A DNA stretch of 64,000 bases from Flavobacterium profundi. Lineage in GTDB: Bacteria > Bacteroidota > Bacteroidia > Flavobacteriales > Flavobacteriaceae. The translations under genes and the position numbers were made by a program. Positions 3,222-9,528 of the stretch are shown here, piece by piece. Under the pieces are notes generated by a model that was given only the letters and a program-made list of their open reading frames with translations, did not search any database and was not told where the DNA came from. Position 1 is the first letter of the stretch. The number at the start of each line of letters is the position of its first letter. The stretch covers positions 62,001-126,000 of the forward strand of contig NZ_VDCZ01000001.1 of the NCBI RefSeq assembly GCF_006491645.1. Direction: 5' to 3'.

Positions 3222-4298
3222 TTACTGGATACTCACTTTTGCTCCATTATACAATTTCCCTTCTGTAGCCACGATATAAGGTTCATTAGCTGACAATCCT
3301 GACAACACTTCCACCTCATTTCCATATTTTTTTCCTATACGTAACCAACGTAAGATGGCAATATCATTATCTCCTAAAGTATACACTCCTGTCAATTGTC
3401 CTTCTCTAACCAAAGCCGTTTCTGGAACCAAAACAGTAGTGGTTTCATTAGCGATTTGTTGTTTTTCTATTGGAAATTGTACATTTACAAACATGCCCGA
3501 CAAAATTTTAGCATCGGTTTTTTCTAAATCTATTTTTACTAAATATTGTCCGCCCGTATTTCTAGCCGATAAACTCACTTCACTAACTGCTCCTTTTACT
3601 GTGATTCCTAATGACTTTACTAATACTTTTACTTGCATTCCATTGGTAATAGACGTAATATCATTTTCGGAAACCATAGCTGTAACTTGCAGTTTCTGAG
3701 CATCTTCTATACTTATCAAAGGCATACCTGGATTAGCCATATCGCCTTCTTTCACAAAAGAATTGGTAATTATTCCACTAAAAGGTGCGGTAATATTTGC
3801 ATAAGCAAATTGGGCATTAATCTCGTTACGCATTTGTTTCGCTGCTTCTAAACCTGCTTTTGCCATTTCATAACGAGAGGTCATATCATCTAATTCTTTT
3901 TGAGAAGCACTTTGTTGCGCAAATAGGTTCGTAAAACGCTCATAATCTTTCTTAGCATTGTTATAAGCTGCCTTAGCTTGAATAATAGAAGCATCTACTT
4001 GTGCTTTTTTAGCTTCTAAATCGGTGTTATTAATACTAACTAACAATTGGCCTGCTTTCACTTTTTGTCCCACTTTCACAGGTACTTTGGTTACAAATCC
4101 CATCATTCTGGTACTCAAATTGGCACTATTTTCAGATTCAATTTTTCCACTTGCTGCCACATAGGATTGTGTTGCAGTACTAGTTTTTCCATACACTATC
4201 ACTTTTATGGGAGAGGAAGTAGCAGTAGTATTCTTGGTTTCACTTCCACAAGATATTGCGACAAGTGCTACGATTATCATTAAAGTTATTTTTTTCAT
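3222..4298 (-). CDS. RND efflux periplasmic adaptor (membrane fusion protein), lipoprotein
   Basis: HlyD/MFP-family adaptor linking the inner-membrane pump to the outer-membrane channel. The 358-residue length is typical. It starts with a lipoprotein signal (lipobox ending AISC at residue 17), so it is probably acylated. It then shows a lipoyl-like half motif (GFVTKVPVKVGQKVKAGQLL), a coiled-coil hairpin around residues 90-160, the second lipoyl half (FSGIITNSFVKEGD), and beta-barrel/MP domains to the C-terminus. It lies between the TolC and pump genes on the same strand, with a 162-bp gap upstream that contains an intergenic repeat. The assignment to the family is firm; the substrate is unknown. 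Confidence 0.93.
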   Translation of the reverse strand: MKKITLMIIVALVAISCGSETKNTTATSSPIKVIVYGKTSTATQSYVAASGKIESENSANLSTRMMGFVTKVPVKVGQKVKAGQLLVSINNTDLEAKKAQVDASIIQAKAAYNNAKKDYERFTNLFAQQSASQKELDDMTSRYEMAKAGLEAAKQMRNEINAQFAYANITAPFSGIITNSFVKEGDMANPGMPLISIEDAQKLQVTAMVSENDITSITNGMQVKVLVKSLGITVKGAVSEVSLSARNTGGQYLVKIDLEKTDAKILSGMFVNVQFPIEKQQIANETTTVLVPETALVREGQLTGVYTLGDNDIAILRWLRIGKKYGNEVEVLSGLSANEPYIVATEGKLYNGAKVSIQ

Positions 4299-4460: not shown

Positions 4461-5774
4461 TTATTTCATTAAAAACTGCAAATACTCTTTCGTAAAATTA
4501 TATTCAAAAACGGCTTGCAATACTTCCAATTCTTTCTGAGCCATTTGTGTTTCTGCATGTAGTAAATCGGTTGTTTTTTCTAAACCTTGTGCAAAGCGAT
4601 TTTGACGAATGCGAAAAACTTCCTGAGATTGTTCATATGCCAATTGACTTAATTGCACTTTGTTTTCAGCATCCACTAATTGACGACTCGTTTTAGTGAC
4701 TTCTAAAAGACTTTGTTTTTTATAGTGTTCGGTTTCAATTTTAGCTTTATTAAAATCGGCTTTGGCTTTTTGGGTTTTCCCAATGTTTTTATAGCCATCA
4801 AATACATCCCAAGACAATTGCGCTCCAAGCAAATAGCCTTTCGCTTGAGTTCCTAAAAATTGACTATCGTATAATTGATAATTTCCAAAGGCATTTAAAC
4901 GTGGTAAAAAACCATACTTAGAAGATTGAAACATTTTTTTATACGCTTCGGTTGACTTTTCCATGGCTTGAATATCTTTTCTATTCGCATTCAAACCCAC
5001 CTCAACAGCTTCTAAGGTTACTTCATTGGCTAACGATTCTGCTGGCACATATACTTTTCCATTGGTATCTTCATTTAAAAGAAAAGCCAAATAATCGGAA
5101 GCATTTTGCACATTACTTTTGGCATATTGCAATTGGTTTGTTATTTCGTTTACACGAACTTGTACATTCAACACATCGGTTTTTTGTAGCATACCATTGT
5201 TGAAGTAATTTTCTACTAGTTTTAAATTTCCTTTTGCGGTTTCGTTTGCTTTTTCTAAAACAAGAACAGCTTTGTAAGCCAATTGCAATTGCATATAGGC
5301 TTTGGAAACTTCTAAGACCAAATATTCTTTGGTTCGTTCGGTTTGCAATTGAAAAGCATCCATTTTAGCTTTTGCTGCCTGTCTTCCAAGCAATCCGTCC
5401 ACATTAATTAGCGGTTGTTTGACTTCAATTACAGTTGCAAAATTTTGAGTTTGATCGGGATTATTCAACAAAGCAGGGTTAAAATCAGCTTGGGTTAAGA
5501 TTTCCTGATTTAATTTGGACCCAAATGCCATTAGCGGATTGGTAGTAACTATACCTGTATAAGACACATTTACATTCGGCAAAAACAAAGCATTCGATTG
5601 ACGATAATCGGCTTTTGCAGCTTGATAAGAGGCATCGGCAGCTTGTAGTTGCAAATTTTTCTCAGAAACTTTTTGTAATATTTCTTCTTTTGAAATTGAG
5701 ATGGTTTCCTGACTAAAAACACCTGCTGTAAAAAAGAGTACGCCTGTAAAGAGGTTCCATTTTATATTCTTCAT
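4461..5774 (-). CDS. TolC-family outer-membrane efflux channel
   Basis: Outer-membrane factor of the tripartite pump. It is 437 residues long and has a cleavable signal (MKNIKWNLFTGVLFFTAGVFS, QE follows). Two OEP-type halves are rich in long helices: one around residues 28-230 (AADASYQAAKADYRQSNALF and following) and one around 240-430, with LLGAQLSWDVFDGYKN near residue 320 matching the second strand region. It is the first gene of the operon TolC, adaptor, pump. The promoter and two palindromes lie at 5801-5866 in front of it. The order TolC first is common in Bacteroidota efflux operons. Confidence 0.93.
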   Translation of the reverse strand: MKNIKWNLFTGVLFFTAGVFSQETISISKEEILQKVSEKNLQLQAADASYQAAKADYRQSNALFLPNVNVSYTGIVTTNPLMAFGSKLNQEILTQADFNPALLNNPDQTQNFATVIEVKQPLINVDGLLGRQAAKAKMDAFQLQTERTKEYLVLEVSKAYMQLQLAYKAVLVLEKANETAKGNLKLVENYFNNGMLQKTDVLNVQVRVNEITNQLQYAKSNVQNASDYLAFLLNEDTNGKVYVPAESLANEVTLEAVEVGLNANRKDIQAMEKSTEAYKKMFQSSKYGFLPRLNAFGNYQLYDSQFLGTQAKGYLLGAQLSWDVFDGYKNIGKTQKAKADFNKAKIETEHYKKQSLLEVTKTSRQLVDAENKVQLSQLAYEQSQEVFRIRQNRFAQGLEKTTDLLHAETQMAQKELEVLQAVFEYNFTKEYLQFLMK

Positions 5775-5800
5775 TGCTATTTTGTTCTTAATTTCTGAAA

Positions 5801-5808
5801 CAAAAGTA
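5801..5808 (-). promoter_or_regulatory. -7 box of the efflux operon promoter
   Basis: On the minus strand this reads TACTTTTG, an exact match to the Bacteroidota -7 consensus TAnnTTTG, 26 bases before the TolC ATG. The -33 element is weak (TTG with a 16-base spacer). A poor -33 box is expected where an activator bound at -41 helps polymerase. Confidence 0.6.
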
Positions 5809-5830
5809 CAATGGCAAAATGGCCCAATTG

Positions 5831-5866
5831 GTAACCAAAGTTACACAGACTTGTAACTAAAGTTAC
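5831..5866. promoter_or_regulatory. two tandem 14-bp palindromes, Crp/Fnr-type operator
   Basis: GTAACCAAAGTTAC (5831-5844) and GTAACTAAAGTTAC (5853-5866) are GTAAC-N4-GTTAC palindromes spaced 22 bp centre to centre. Their centres lie 33 and 55 bp upstream of the centre of the -7 box, so about -40 and -62 from the expected start. These are the classic class II and class I activator positions of Crp/Fnr proteins. GTA-N8-TAC geometry is known from that family (for example NtcA). The same palindrome recurs in front of cydA. No regulator gene is in the window. Confidence 0.6.
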
Positions 5867-5908
5867 ATAACTATTTTATTTCCACTATAAGATTTAATGA
5901 ATAAACTG

Positions 5909-6349
5909 AAGTTAATTCGGTTGAAACGTAACTCGATTCGTAATAAGCATAATTTGATTTGGTTTAAACATAACTTAATTAGCAATAAGCAAAACTTAAT
6001 TCGGTTTAAACATAACTTAATTAGCAATAAGCAAAACTTAATTCGGTTTAAACATAACTTAATTAGCAATAAGCAAAACTTAATTCGGTTTAAACATAAC
6101 TTGATTCGTAATAAGCAAAACTTAATTTGGTTTAAACGTAACTCGATTACTAGTTCTATGCAATCGGTTCATAGAACTATGCAATTGATACAGTGTTCTG
6201 TGTAATTGATACATAGTTCTGTGTAATTGATACATAGTTCACTGTATTGAGTTCAGAGTTCTGTGTAATTGATAACTAGTACACTGCAATTGATACACCC
6301 TTCACTGTATTGGAAACATAGTCAAGTGCATTGGTTACATAGTTAACAA
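5909..6349. repeat. 21 tandem units of exactly 21 bp
   Basis: The 441 bp divide into 21 consecutive 21-bp units with no indel. Units 1-12 start AAxTxxATT and alternate two right halves (CGGTTTAAACAT and AGCAATAAGCAA), giving a 42-bp higher order; three copies of the 42-mer (5972-6097) are identical. Units 13-21 change to the form (C/T)AATTGATACATAGTTCxxTG but keep the same phase. Unit 12 is a hybrid of both forms. 21 bp equals two DNA turns. The array lies between the efflux operon promoter and the next gene. It reads open in several frames only because 21 is a multiple of three. Confidence 0.9.
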
Positions 6350-6382
6350 CGCTAAATTTGGTTGAAAAACAATAGAAAAACT

Positions 6383-6412
6383 AGTTCTCGATACTATTTT
6401 TATAAAAAACAT
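6383..6412 (+). repeat. intergenic repeat copy B (truncated)
   Basis: AGTTCTCGATACTATTTTTA marks the left end. The right end (CTCGAACTGACG) is missing. It lies 88 bp past the stop codon of the 180-residue secreted protein gene. The shared variant TACTATTTTTATAAAA links it to copies C and H. The rest of the 5775-6499 gap holds the efflux promoter, its operators and the 21-bp array; I see no gene there. Confidence 0.7.
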
Positions 6413-6499
6413 TCTCTTTGATAGAATAAGTTGCGAGATTTGACAACTCTTCTAAGATTGTATTTTCTTTTCTGTTTTTTTAAAGTAATTTAATAGAGC

Positions 6500-7042
6500 C
6501 TAATGATATTCATTGAATTTTATAGACTCTATTATGTTTGTTCTGAATGCTTTATTTTTATCAAAATTATCACCATCAATCATGAATTGGATAGAATAAA
6601 TAGCACCTTTATAAATAAAACTATAATTTTCTACTATTTTCTTTTGTTCTTGAACTTCTAATACAATTTTGATATAAAAAAACTTCACATTCTCTACAGA
6701 AAAAACTTTGAAATCTTCAGTAGTAGAAAAAGTTTCACTAATGAGCGTTCCCTTAGTAGAATTAAGGACTCCTTTTTTTATCCCTTTTAAAAACTTATTC
6801 ATACCCTTTTCGTCACTTATCTTTGAGGCTTCATTTATTCTATCAAATTTTGTATATACTATAATTTCAGTATCGTATATTCCTCTTATAAATTTTCCAT
6901 TTGCGATTACTCCTTCTTCGGCATTATCAAGAACATCAATAGTAATGTTTTCATCAAATTCATATTGGAATACTTCTTGACTAAAACAATTTAAACTAAA
7001 AAAAACAATAGCATTGTAAATGAATTTTAGCATGAATTTCAT
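6500..7042 (-). CDS. secreted hypothetical protein, paralogue 1
   Basis: 180 residues with a signal peptide ending near CFS-QEV. I do not recognise a named family. It is clearly paralogous to the gene at 9025-9528: both mature proteins begin SQEVFQYEFDEN, share an acidic segment followed by GKF(I/V)(R/K)G, and end with FxYKGxIYxIQFM and a KNxxFRxxIxxSIxFN motif. The fold is probably a small beta-rich exported domain, but that is a guess. Repeat copies flank it on both sides (B downstream, C upstream). Its promoter (-7 box TAGTTTTG at 7062-7069) resembles that of the gene starting at 8819. Confidence 0.8.
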   Translation of the reverse strand: MKFMLKFIYNAIVFFSLNCFSQEVFQYEFDENITIDVLDNAEEGVIANGKFIRGIYDTEIIVYTKFDRINEASKISDEKGMNKFLKGIKKGVLNSTKGTLISETFSTTEDFKVFSVENVKFFYIKIVLEVQEQKKIVENYSFIYKGAIYSIQFMIDGDNFDKNKAFRTNIIESIKFNEYH

Positions 7043-7061
7043 TTTATTAAATTATACTTGA

Positions 7062-7102
7062 CAAAACTAATCTTTTATTTTTCTAAAAAACTACCAAATG
7101 GG
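7062..7102 (-). promoter_or_regulatory. promoter of paralogue 1, homologous to segment 8901-8940
   Basis: On the minus strand TAGTTTTG (7062-7069) fits TAnnTTTG and lies 20 bp before the ATG at 7042. The following bases (reverse of TAATCTTTTATTTT...CTACCAAATG) match the segment at 8906-8939 closely, and both run straight into a repeat copy. A promoter-plus-repeat block seems to have been duplicated. Confidence 0.5.
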
Positions 7103-7175
7103 AGTTCTCGATACTATTTTTATAAAATTGTTTTTTACATTTTATAAAAATCACTCGAACTGACGCAGTGCTGAT
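7103..7175 (+). repeat. intergenic repeat copy C
   Basis: Left end AGTTCTCGATACTATTTTTA at 7103. Right end CACTCGAACTGACGCAGTGC followed by TGAT, ending at 7175. The ends pair (AGTTC with GAACT) and the inner T-run pairs with an A-run, so a single-stranded copy can fold into an imperfect hairpin. Confidence 0.8.
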
Positions 7176-7212
7176 TTAAATTTTTATTACATCCGTTTTG
7201 TTTACTGTTATG

Positions 7213-7278
7213 AGTTCTCGATACATTTTCTACTCCATTTCATTTCGTAAAAAACACTCGAACTGACGCAGTGCTGAT
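7213..7278 (+). repeat. intergenic repeat copy D
   Basis: Full-length forward copy from AGTTCTCGATACATTTTC to GACGCAGTGCTGAT. It contains the inner block CATTTCATTTCGTAAAAAAC shared with copies A and G. It is 37 bp from copy C and in the same orientation. Confidence 0.85.
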
Positions 7279-7312
7279 TACAAAAATAGTAGATAAAATT
7301 ATATTAACGACT

Positions 7313-7366
7313 CGTCAGTTCGATTGGTTTTGTGAAGCGCAACGAAACAAAAATATATCGAGAACT
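7313..7366 (-). repeat. intergenic repeat copy E (inverted)
   Basis: Reads CGTCAGTTCGATTGG ... ATATATCGAGAACT on the plus strand, the reverse complement of the forward copies. The inner block has GTTGCGCTTCAC (minus strand) instead of the CATTTCAT form, so it belongs to a subtype shared with copy F. Confidence 0.8.
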
Positions 7367-7383
7367 CATTTTAATTACCACAC

Positions 7384-7437
7384 CGTCAGTTCGAGTGTTT
7401 TTGTGTAGAGTAACGAAACAAAAATGTATCGAGAACT
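7384..7437 (-). repeat. intergenic repeat copy F (inverted), abutting the GIY-YIG stop codon
   Basis: Reads CGTCAGTTCGAGTG ... ATGTATCGAGAACT on the plus strand. Its last base touches the GIY-YIG stop codon (7437-7439), so on the coding strand the gene ends TAAGTTCTCGATAC and runs directly into the repeat. The 7043-7436 gap consists almost wholly of copies C, D, E and F. Confidence 0.85.
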
Positions 7438-7724
7438 TAAAATTTCTTCTTTGCTAAATTAGGTAAGTCATCAAATTCACCAAATATTAAAGCTTCTTTT
7501 TTAGCTCTAGACCACTTTTTTATTTGCTTTTCTTTTTGAATTGCAATAGTAATATCCGTAAACTCAGCATAGAAAACCAATAAAACTGGTCTCCTATTAA
7601 AAGTATAACAATCTTGAAAAACACCATTTTCATGCTGAAAAATACGTTGCGAAAGATTACTTGTAACTCCTGTATAATAAGTGTTATCAGAACATTTTAA
7701 AATATATACATAAGAAGCTTTCAT
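7437..7724 (-). CDS. small GIY-YIG nuclease domain protein
   Basis: 95 residues, a stand-alone GIY-YIG domain of the UvrC/UPF0213-like type. The N-terminus has YVYILKCSDNTYYTGVT, where YVY and YYTG are the GIY and YIG elements, followed by the helix SNLSQRIFQHENG with the catalytic-type Arg and a His. The C-terminal half has EKQIKKWSRAKKEALI, a basic helix typical of the family. Members of this group occur as several copies in many flavobacterial genomes; their role is unknown. The gene is bounded by inverted repeat copies F (touching the stop codon) and G (17 bp before the ATG), both with the GTTCTCGATAC end facing the gene. That arrangement suggests a link between nuclease and repeat, which is inference. 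Confidence 0.88.
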   Translation of the reverse strand: MKASYVYILKCSDNTYYTGVTSNLSQRIFQHENGVFQDCYTFNRRPVLLVFYAEFTDITIAIQKEKQIKKWSRAKKEALIFGEFDDLPNLAKKKF

Positions 7725-8321: not shown

Positions 8322-8819
8322 TTATTTATAATTATAGAAAACCTTGGGAACAGATTTTATATTTTCAATTTTCTTAATTTGAATCATTCTTTCAAAATCA
8401 TTTAAGACTTGTTCTACTTCTGGCAGATCGCTAACCACTTTGATTTTATACAACTTACATATTGTAAGTGTAGTTAGATATAATCTTTCCTTTTTATATT
8501 TTCGAGCAAATTTTAATCCATATACAAAACCGTAATTTTCATTTTTCAATCTATTTTTAAATTCTAAAATCAGTTCTAATGTAATTCTATTATTTAGTAC
8601 TTGAAAACTACAATGATAGGTATATTCATCTACTATTTTAGAAAACCATTTATCTAATTTTTTCTGTTTAGAATTTTCTAATTCAAAACCAATATCTTCT
8701 AGTTTTTTAAATAAAGGAACATGTTCGAAATTTTTTTTTATTTTCTTTAATTTGAAATGCTCATATATAATAGAACTTATTAGAAACATGACCATTAAAA
8801 CTAAAAATAACATACCCAT
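8322..8819 (-). CDS. hypothetical membrane-anchored protein
   Basis: 165 residues. A single N-terminal hydrophobic segment (GMLFLVLMVMFLISSIIYEH) is followed by a charged cytosol-type domain with several Lys-rich helices and no motif I can name. The start at 8819 sits behind a TAnnTTTG promoter box at 8901-8908. It forms a two-gene unit with the DUF2750 gene, with a 5-bp gap. An accessory pair of this type could be an effector/immunity set, but nothing in the sequence shows it. Confidence 0.6.
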   Translation of the reverse strand: MGMLFLVLMVMFLISSIIYEHFKLKKIKKNFEHVPLFKKLEDIGFELENSKQKKLDKWFSKIVDEYTYHCSFQVLNNRITLELILEFKNRLKNENYGFVYGLKFARKYKKERLYLTTLTICKLYKIKVVSDLPEVEQVLNDFERMIQIKKIENIKSVPKVFYNYK

Positions 8820-9024: not shown

Positions 9025-9528
9025 TTAGTTAAATTCTATTGAATCTAGAATTTTCTTTCTAAAATCATTATTTTTTTCAAATTCATCTTGTGCATTCATG
9101 AATTGAATTGTGTATATAAAACCTTTATAAAAAAAATTAAAGCTTTGGGTTCTTTTACTTTCTCCTCCTGCAACAAAATCTATTGTAAAGGAATAGATTT
9201 TAACATCGTTCAAAACAAATTCTTCCTCACTCACAAGCTTTCCTTTTGCAGACTTTAGCAGGCCATCTTTAACTCCTTTAAAAAAATTAACTTTCTTTTT
9301 TTCATCCTTACCTTTAAAGATATCTTTTGGTTTATCTGAACTTAGGTAAACAATAATTTCATTTCCAAAGGCACCTTTTACAAATTTCCCATCTAGTAAT
9401 TCACCTTCTTCAGCTTCTTCAACAACATCAATAGTTAGATTTTCATCAAATTCATATTGAAAAACTTCCTGACTAAAACCATGTAAATTAAAAAGTACGA
9501 AAACCGCAAAAAATAGTATTTTTTTCAT
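9025..9528 (-). CDS. secreted hypothetical protein, paralogue 2
   Basis: 167 residues from the ATG at 9528. The frame opens further upstream at 9555, but the internal start gives a clean signal peptide (MKKILFFAVFVLFNLHGFS, QE follows). It is paralogous to the 6500-7042 product: same mature N-terminus SQEVFQYEFDEN, same GKFVKGAFGNEIIVY segment and same C-terminal motif FFYKGFIYTIQFM. Family unknown. A strong terminator follows. Finding both copies within 3 kb, each with a truncated repeat downstream, points to local duplication. Confidence 0.8.
   Translation of the reverse strand: MKKILFFAVFVLFNLHGFSQEVFQYEFDENLTIDVVEEAEEGELLDGKFVKGAFGNEIIVYLSSDKPKDIFKGKDEKKKVNFFKGVKDGLLKSAKGKLVSEEEFVLNDVKIYSFTIDFVAGGESKRTQSFNFFYKGFIYTIQFMNAQDEFEKNNDFRKKILDSIEFN

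Follow-up and report, generated by a model that had tools for sequence, protein, structure and literature searches.

BrickBuilt of Porphyromonas gingivalis is a 23-bp minisatellite within a MITE, and it agrees with the Flavobacterium arrays considered in this study in the occurrence in Bacteroidota, the intergenic location, the head-to-tail arrangement of units without spacers, and the presence of several copies per genome (PMC4596501). BrickBuilt forms one family with a 23-bp unit and has a leader and a tail with inverted-repeat ends, whereas the Flavobacterium arrays have units of 20.5–22 bp and belong to several families (PMC4596501). Dispersed noncoding satellite families of prokaryotes, such as those of Leptospira interrogans, are rare according to a survey, and they resemble the present arrays in that related noncoding arrays are found at several loci per genome; however, the Leptospira families named there have units of 37 and 46, and the Flavobacterium psychrophilum family given there has a repeat size of 69, both unlike the present arrays (PMC6749651). 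The TAACTGA direct repeats of Beggiatoaceae and some Bacteroidetes are also intergenic and form long arrays in some Bacteroidetes, but they differ in their 7-base unit and, in the best-studied genome, in their position mostly just before start codons (PMC4679880). No description of two-turn arrays in Flavobacterium was found in the open-access literature. Iteron arrays of plasmid and chromosomal origins consist of repeats of approximately 17–22 bp in helical phase, on which protein is bound side by side. The present arrays differ from iterons in occupying many loci per genome; the nearest flanking ORFs were listed for 18 arrays, and no initiator gene was found among the ten proteins checked against Pfam (eight flanking ORFs, the HlyD-type ORF, and the ORF inside the array).

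The array studied here is located in a 64,000-bp stretch of Flavobacterium profundi DNA, the whole of which is referred to as the window (source genome of 4.01 Mb, 44 contigs). It lies 135 bp upstream of a gene of the OEP/TolC type and 151 bp from an ORF of 180 aa (Table 1).

Table 1. Position of the tandem array, its parts, and the adjoining genes in the window
Feature	Position	Strand	Remarks
Whole array	5909..6349	.	21 units of 21 bp, single register
Family 1 units (n = 11)	5912..6142	+	TTAATTCGGTTTAAACATAAC / TTAATTAGCAATAAGCAAAAC forms in alternation, core AACTTRATT
Three identical 42-mers	5975..6100	+	copies 5975-6016, 6017-6058, 6059-6100
Hybrid unit (unit 12)	6140..6160	+	joins both halves
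Family 2 units	6146..6348	+	TTGATACATAGTTCTGTGTAA type
OEP/TolC-type efflux gene	4461..5774	-	Pfam PF02321; adjoins array
HlyD-type membrane-fusion gene	3222..4298	-	Pfam PF16576; downstream of OEP gene
180-aa ORF	6500..7042	-	other side of array; no Pfam family

An earlier note on this DNA had described the array as 21 units of 21 bp in strict phase, with three identical 42-mers inside and a twelfth unit of hybrid type, and each of these points was confirmed: the length is 441 bp (21 × 21), the row-by-row alignment of units requires no indel, the first 42-mer recurs exactly in the other two copies, and unit 12 combines both unit forms. A 42-bp period dominates the first half because units 1 to 11 take two forms in turn, and Tandem Repeats Finder reported a period of 42 with 5.5 copies (score 359) at 5912–6143 and a period of 21 at 6183–6274, with 5% indels in the latter row, whereas the 21-bp alignment rows need none. 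The lag detector found the segment 5859–6371 in the window, and two simulated windows with matching trinucleotide composition gave no hit. Being a tandem repeat outside genes, the array is a satellite in the sense of Subirana and Messeguer. Two other statements of the note, namely, that the unit changes completely between the halves and that slippage could not yield two families in one phase, did not hold up. The same place in the unit is occupied by AACTTRATT in family 1 and by CAATTGATA in family 2, and the match to AACTTRATT averaged 7.37 of 9 positions over both halves in one register compared with 5.04 (sd 0.46) in column-permuted units. Since both halves have a common core, the single phase requires no special cause and can be given by common descent; taken together with the same order of units in relatives, this means that both halves can descend from one array.

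Other repeats were observed on both sides of the array. Two 14-bp inverted repeats located in the efflux promoter region (5831–5844 and 5853–5866, 22 bp apart) look like a doubled repressor operator; a comparable pair is present in genome G255 (L013), and 22 bp are deleted at that place in NRK F7. A dispersed palindromic repeat, AGTTCTCGATAC ... CACTCGAACTGACGC, occurs in the window at approximately 6383–6410, 7102–7175, 7213–7275, and 7300–7440, and a copy of it directly adjoins the array on its right side in both the window and NRK F7.

Judging by the neighboring efflux gene (98% protein identity), NRK F7 is the closest named relative. The DNA search with the efflux gene against 398 genomes of the genus gave a match in 157 of them and 30 loci, the own locus included; a 21-bp array was located upstream in four of these loci (own, NRK F7, G337, which is taken to be 9AF, and G255) and was absent in 26. 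In the protein search of the named genomes, an array was found in 4 of the 39 loci (NRK F7, J27, 9AF, and F. jejuense) and was absent upstream of the efflux gene in 35, with under 300 bp of upstream DNA in two of the 39. Five relatives (NRK F7, J27, 9AF, G255, and F. jejuense) carry the array at the same locus, always with a step of 21 bp, which is constant while the number and the letters of the units differ. NRK F7 contains both unit forms in phase, with fewer of each, and 9AF contains a short array in which a similar junction and right end are retained; a junction of the hybrid type is found in both. In G255 and F. jejuense, family 1 units are followed by family 2-like units, and the sequence of J27 terminates inside the array. 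The view that phase outlasts sequence is thus supported: the proposed search for the same phase with a different unit sequence in related genomes succeeded at this very locus in five relatives with diverged units, families of other sequence have periods of 20.5–22 bp, and the free variation of unit length among relatives that would speak against this view was not seen. In F. jejuense, a transposase-like ORF (L221, 2518–3732), which presumably resembles IS256, separates the array from the efflux gene. In genome G179, the 3' end of the efflux gene has an array of 20/21 bp with another sequence nearby (L030, 1340–1545, reverse reading).

The own genome contains at least three further arrays of the same unit family, at C7, C14, and C17, that is, several related arrays per genome, as in a dispersed satellite. 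The C7 array is located beside a GH18 gene, the C14 array between cytidylyltransferase-like (coaD-like) and sulfate-permease genes, and the C17 array precedes an RNA methyltransferase gene; the first two have counterparts in NRK F7, and the third has one in G172 before a closely similar gene. In the C14 array, the orientation of the core alternates with the 21-bp step kept, and genome G122 carries four arrays, with 20 to 38 units each, in which the spacer is a different one. The genes flanking the arrays are arranged in tandem, divergently, or convergently, and no promoter or terminator role is therefore indicated; the functions of the neighbors also vary, and, with sister arrays adjoining genes of such different kinds, the special link to the efflux promoter suggested earlier is unsupported. 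The register was unbroken over 297 units in 17 arrays, a tally in which the longest in-phase run per array was taken, orthologues were counted separately, and the ends were treated leniently. BLAST searches with the window array gave no match in 59 other genomes, in phages, or in plasmids. In the genome tally, a distance of 21 was found in 10 genomes and other distances in up to 8, a count that is weak when taken alone because 21 stands out only in runs of several matches.

Comparison of the window species with NRK F7 revealed 459 substitutions and 18 indels in flanking noncoding DNA, one of the 18 being a multiple of 21, and 76 substitutions and five indels in the three arrays compared, all five being multiples of 21. 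It should be noted that 10 of the 18 flanking indels fell in homopolymer runs of at least 5, which had a density of 2.2 per kb in the arrays versus 26.0 in the flanks. For nine arrays (one per locus) and their substitutions, the homopolymer-corrected expectation was 4.8–9.6 indels, a value that falls lower without the 21- and 22-bp flanking events, and none was seen within the in-phase runs. Because the longest in-phase runs had been chosen and the eight flanking indels outside homopolymer runs include one of 21 bp and one of 22 bp, this result is suggestive, not decisive, and the absence of indels would argue weakly for a constraint on phase.

Noncoding arrays with at least five copies and a period of at least 10 bp were counted manually in stretches picked by coordinate only, and 8 of the 10 had a period of 20.5–22 bp (L044, L164, L173, L177, L178, L183, L080, and L091), the exceptions being arrays of 24 bp in L208 and 29 bp in L092. 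The 24-bp array was counted as an exception even though it adjoins what we take, by resemblance, to be IS21-type genes, and L091 was counted as noncoding despite a coding flag from an antisense ORF because the forward genes end at 8697 and start at 9411. By eye, the eight arrays represent five families (TACTCAGAYGG, TAAAATTTTA, ACTAAAAGTAAATA, CTTATAAATAAG, and CCAATAGTAT); the match of L178 and L183 to the family 1 core was not above the permuted control, and the unrelatedness of the remaining arrays was judged by eye. In a wide-gap pattern search of 50 genomes, 24 of the 25 TACTCAGA pairs were spaced 20 or 21 bp. Sampling 400 kb across four genomes that belong to other families of the order gave no passing noncoding array with a period close to 21 bp. 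Many weak hits given by an earlier, laxer detector were not used for the counts, and the 21-periodic DNA of L058, a coding heptad region, was dropped from them. The other common noncoding class consisted of 7- and 8-bp periods (L049, 546–690; L167, 894–1103; L162, 10146–10291 and 11304–11502).

Among pairs of TAAAATTTTA-type cores, with gaps of up to 31 allowed and the letters of the spacer varying, 83 of 85 were at 21 or 22 bp (24 of 25, 17 of 17, and 42 of 43 in the separate pattern searches), which do not amount to 83 independent events because readings of both strands, overlapping patterns, and sites common to sister species are included. The own genome has 27 such pairs per strand, all at 21 or 22 bp among the matches listed. 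Palindrome arrays of this type, with a step of 21–22 bp, were observed in the own genome at G000:C2:15647–15763, C2:303656–303771, C5:8903–9061, and C6:91410. In other genera, one pair each, with mixed spacing, was found in 9 of 119, and the family is confined. No covariation was detected across the palindrome flanks of 20 cores, and a protein site therefore fits better than a hairpin. The scan of viral contigs, which covered spacings of 22 and 23 bp, revealed six stretches with a 12-base gap (22 bp) and two with a 13-base gap (23 bp), which are mostly AT-rich and probably due to chance; in contig L273 (3061–3093), two GTAAAATTTTACG palindromes are 23 bp apart. In IMG/VR, 12 stretches had three cores 21 bp apart and none had them at 22; they were rejected as evidence, 10 of the 12 being inside ORFs of at least 100 aa (the others were L262 and L264).

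The feature common to the arrays is a step of two helical turns, a spacing that is suggestive of proteins stacked along a single DNA face. Our preferred, although tentative, reading is that these are helically phased protein-binding arrays, the copy number of which changes in whole units. The window array would then belong with other noncoding tandem arrays of a Flavobacterium species group, in which a short core recurs once per two helix turns and one or several putative DNA-binding proteins occupy each core; bound neighbors would align on one DNA face and touch side by side, and a stiff or compacted stretch between genes would result. Recombination or slippage would change the copy number in whole units, and units losing register would be selected against. 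The conservation of 21 bp at the same locus, the unbroken register, the whole-unit indels, and the similar spacing in other families, all directly observed, count for this reading, and the varying unit number, the varying orientation and function of neighbors, the absence of the array at most Flavobacterium loci, and the lack of a palindrome beyond chance in family 1 count against it. We infer the bound protein, its stacking on one face, and a possible effect on neighboring genes or the nucleoid.

Almost as likely is a neutral or selfish minisatellite, the 21-bp unit of which had a single origin, was multiplied in whole units through slippage and unequal recombination, and reached several loci, with the period being kept only by inheritance from copy to copy. 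It agrees with the common core of both halves, the differences in copy number (42 and 21 bp) that separate sister species, the dispersal of related copies at unrelated loci, and the patchy presence in the genus; however, it leaves unexplained both the 20.5–22 bp in families of other sequence and the 21–22 bp between TAAAATTTTA cores, given their varying spacer letters. The common period across families of different sequence would follow if all arrays were functionless products of a copying mechanism whose inherent step is about two turns, but the spacing shifts by one base within a family (20/21, 21/22), and we consider this improbable; to our knowledge, no copying mechanism with such a step has been found.

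According to the curvature prediction, which was based on wedge values, the two halves of the window array rank differently among noncoding windows, the first at the 51.2th percentile and the second at the 91.7th, and 73% of same-period permuted controls were bent as much as the first half or more. The array does not stand well above the noncoding background, and the bent-DNA segment proposed earlier is not supported. Three TAAAATTTTA arrays had predicted curvature at the 98.9th–100th percentile, reached by a share of at most 0.01 of column-permuted controls, and L164, a TAAAATTTTA array of the own genome, is strongly curved by prediction. Bending is thus a trait of a single family rather than what unites the arrays, so that intrinsically bent DNA, which holds for that family, is a very unlikely explanation of the whole set.

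An ORF of 102 aa (5897–6205), consisting of NLIxxKx heptads, runs through family 1, and the position of its start codon is common to NRK F7 and J27; the NLIxxKx heptad is encoded by frame +0 in many arrays of family 1. A translated heptapeptide repeat would accord with this start codon, with the presence of at most one stop in frame +0 in 9 of 17 arrays or parts of arrays (none in seven), and with a synonymous share of 0.31 in this frame versus 0.17–0.24 in the others. Nevertheless, the same open frame was not found across related arrays, with frame +0 having stops in family 2 and in the C14, C17, and G122 arrays; the periods of other families are not multiples of 3, and the ORF had no Pfam match, all of which leaves translation with very little probability as well. 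The least probable explanation is structured RNA or DNA hairpins. Compared with mononucleotide shuffles, family 2 has the better fold (z of −5.6 and −4.6), and it has weak sub-threshold Rfam matches, but family 1 does not fold better than its shuffles (z of 1.3 and 0.8), and none of the six matches listed by Rfam for 5700–7500 of the window (microRNA models, AfaR) reached the gathering score. Neither stable RNA folds nor coding frames are common to the arrays.

Returning to helically phased binding arrays, a broader version is possible, although rather doubtful: a subgroup of Flavobacterium may possess a genome-wide class of two-turn arrays with different cores and one spacing rule (20.5–22 bp), placed at fixed intergenic sites and changing in letters and copy number, which might serve as landing platforms for one or several uncharacterized nucleoid proteins reading the phase of the helix together with a loose core. 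Noncoding satellites of bacteria are usually regarded as products of slippage. If the two-turn period is common to families of different sequence and is retained while the letters change, the arrays would offer a direct route to the protein reading them and a test of nucleoid organization in Bacteroidota. The nucleoid-platform reading, if true, would mean a chromosome-organizing element new to Bacteroidota, as far as the open-access literature goes.
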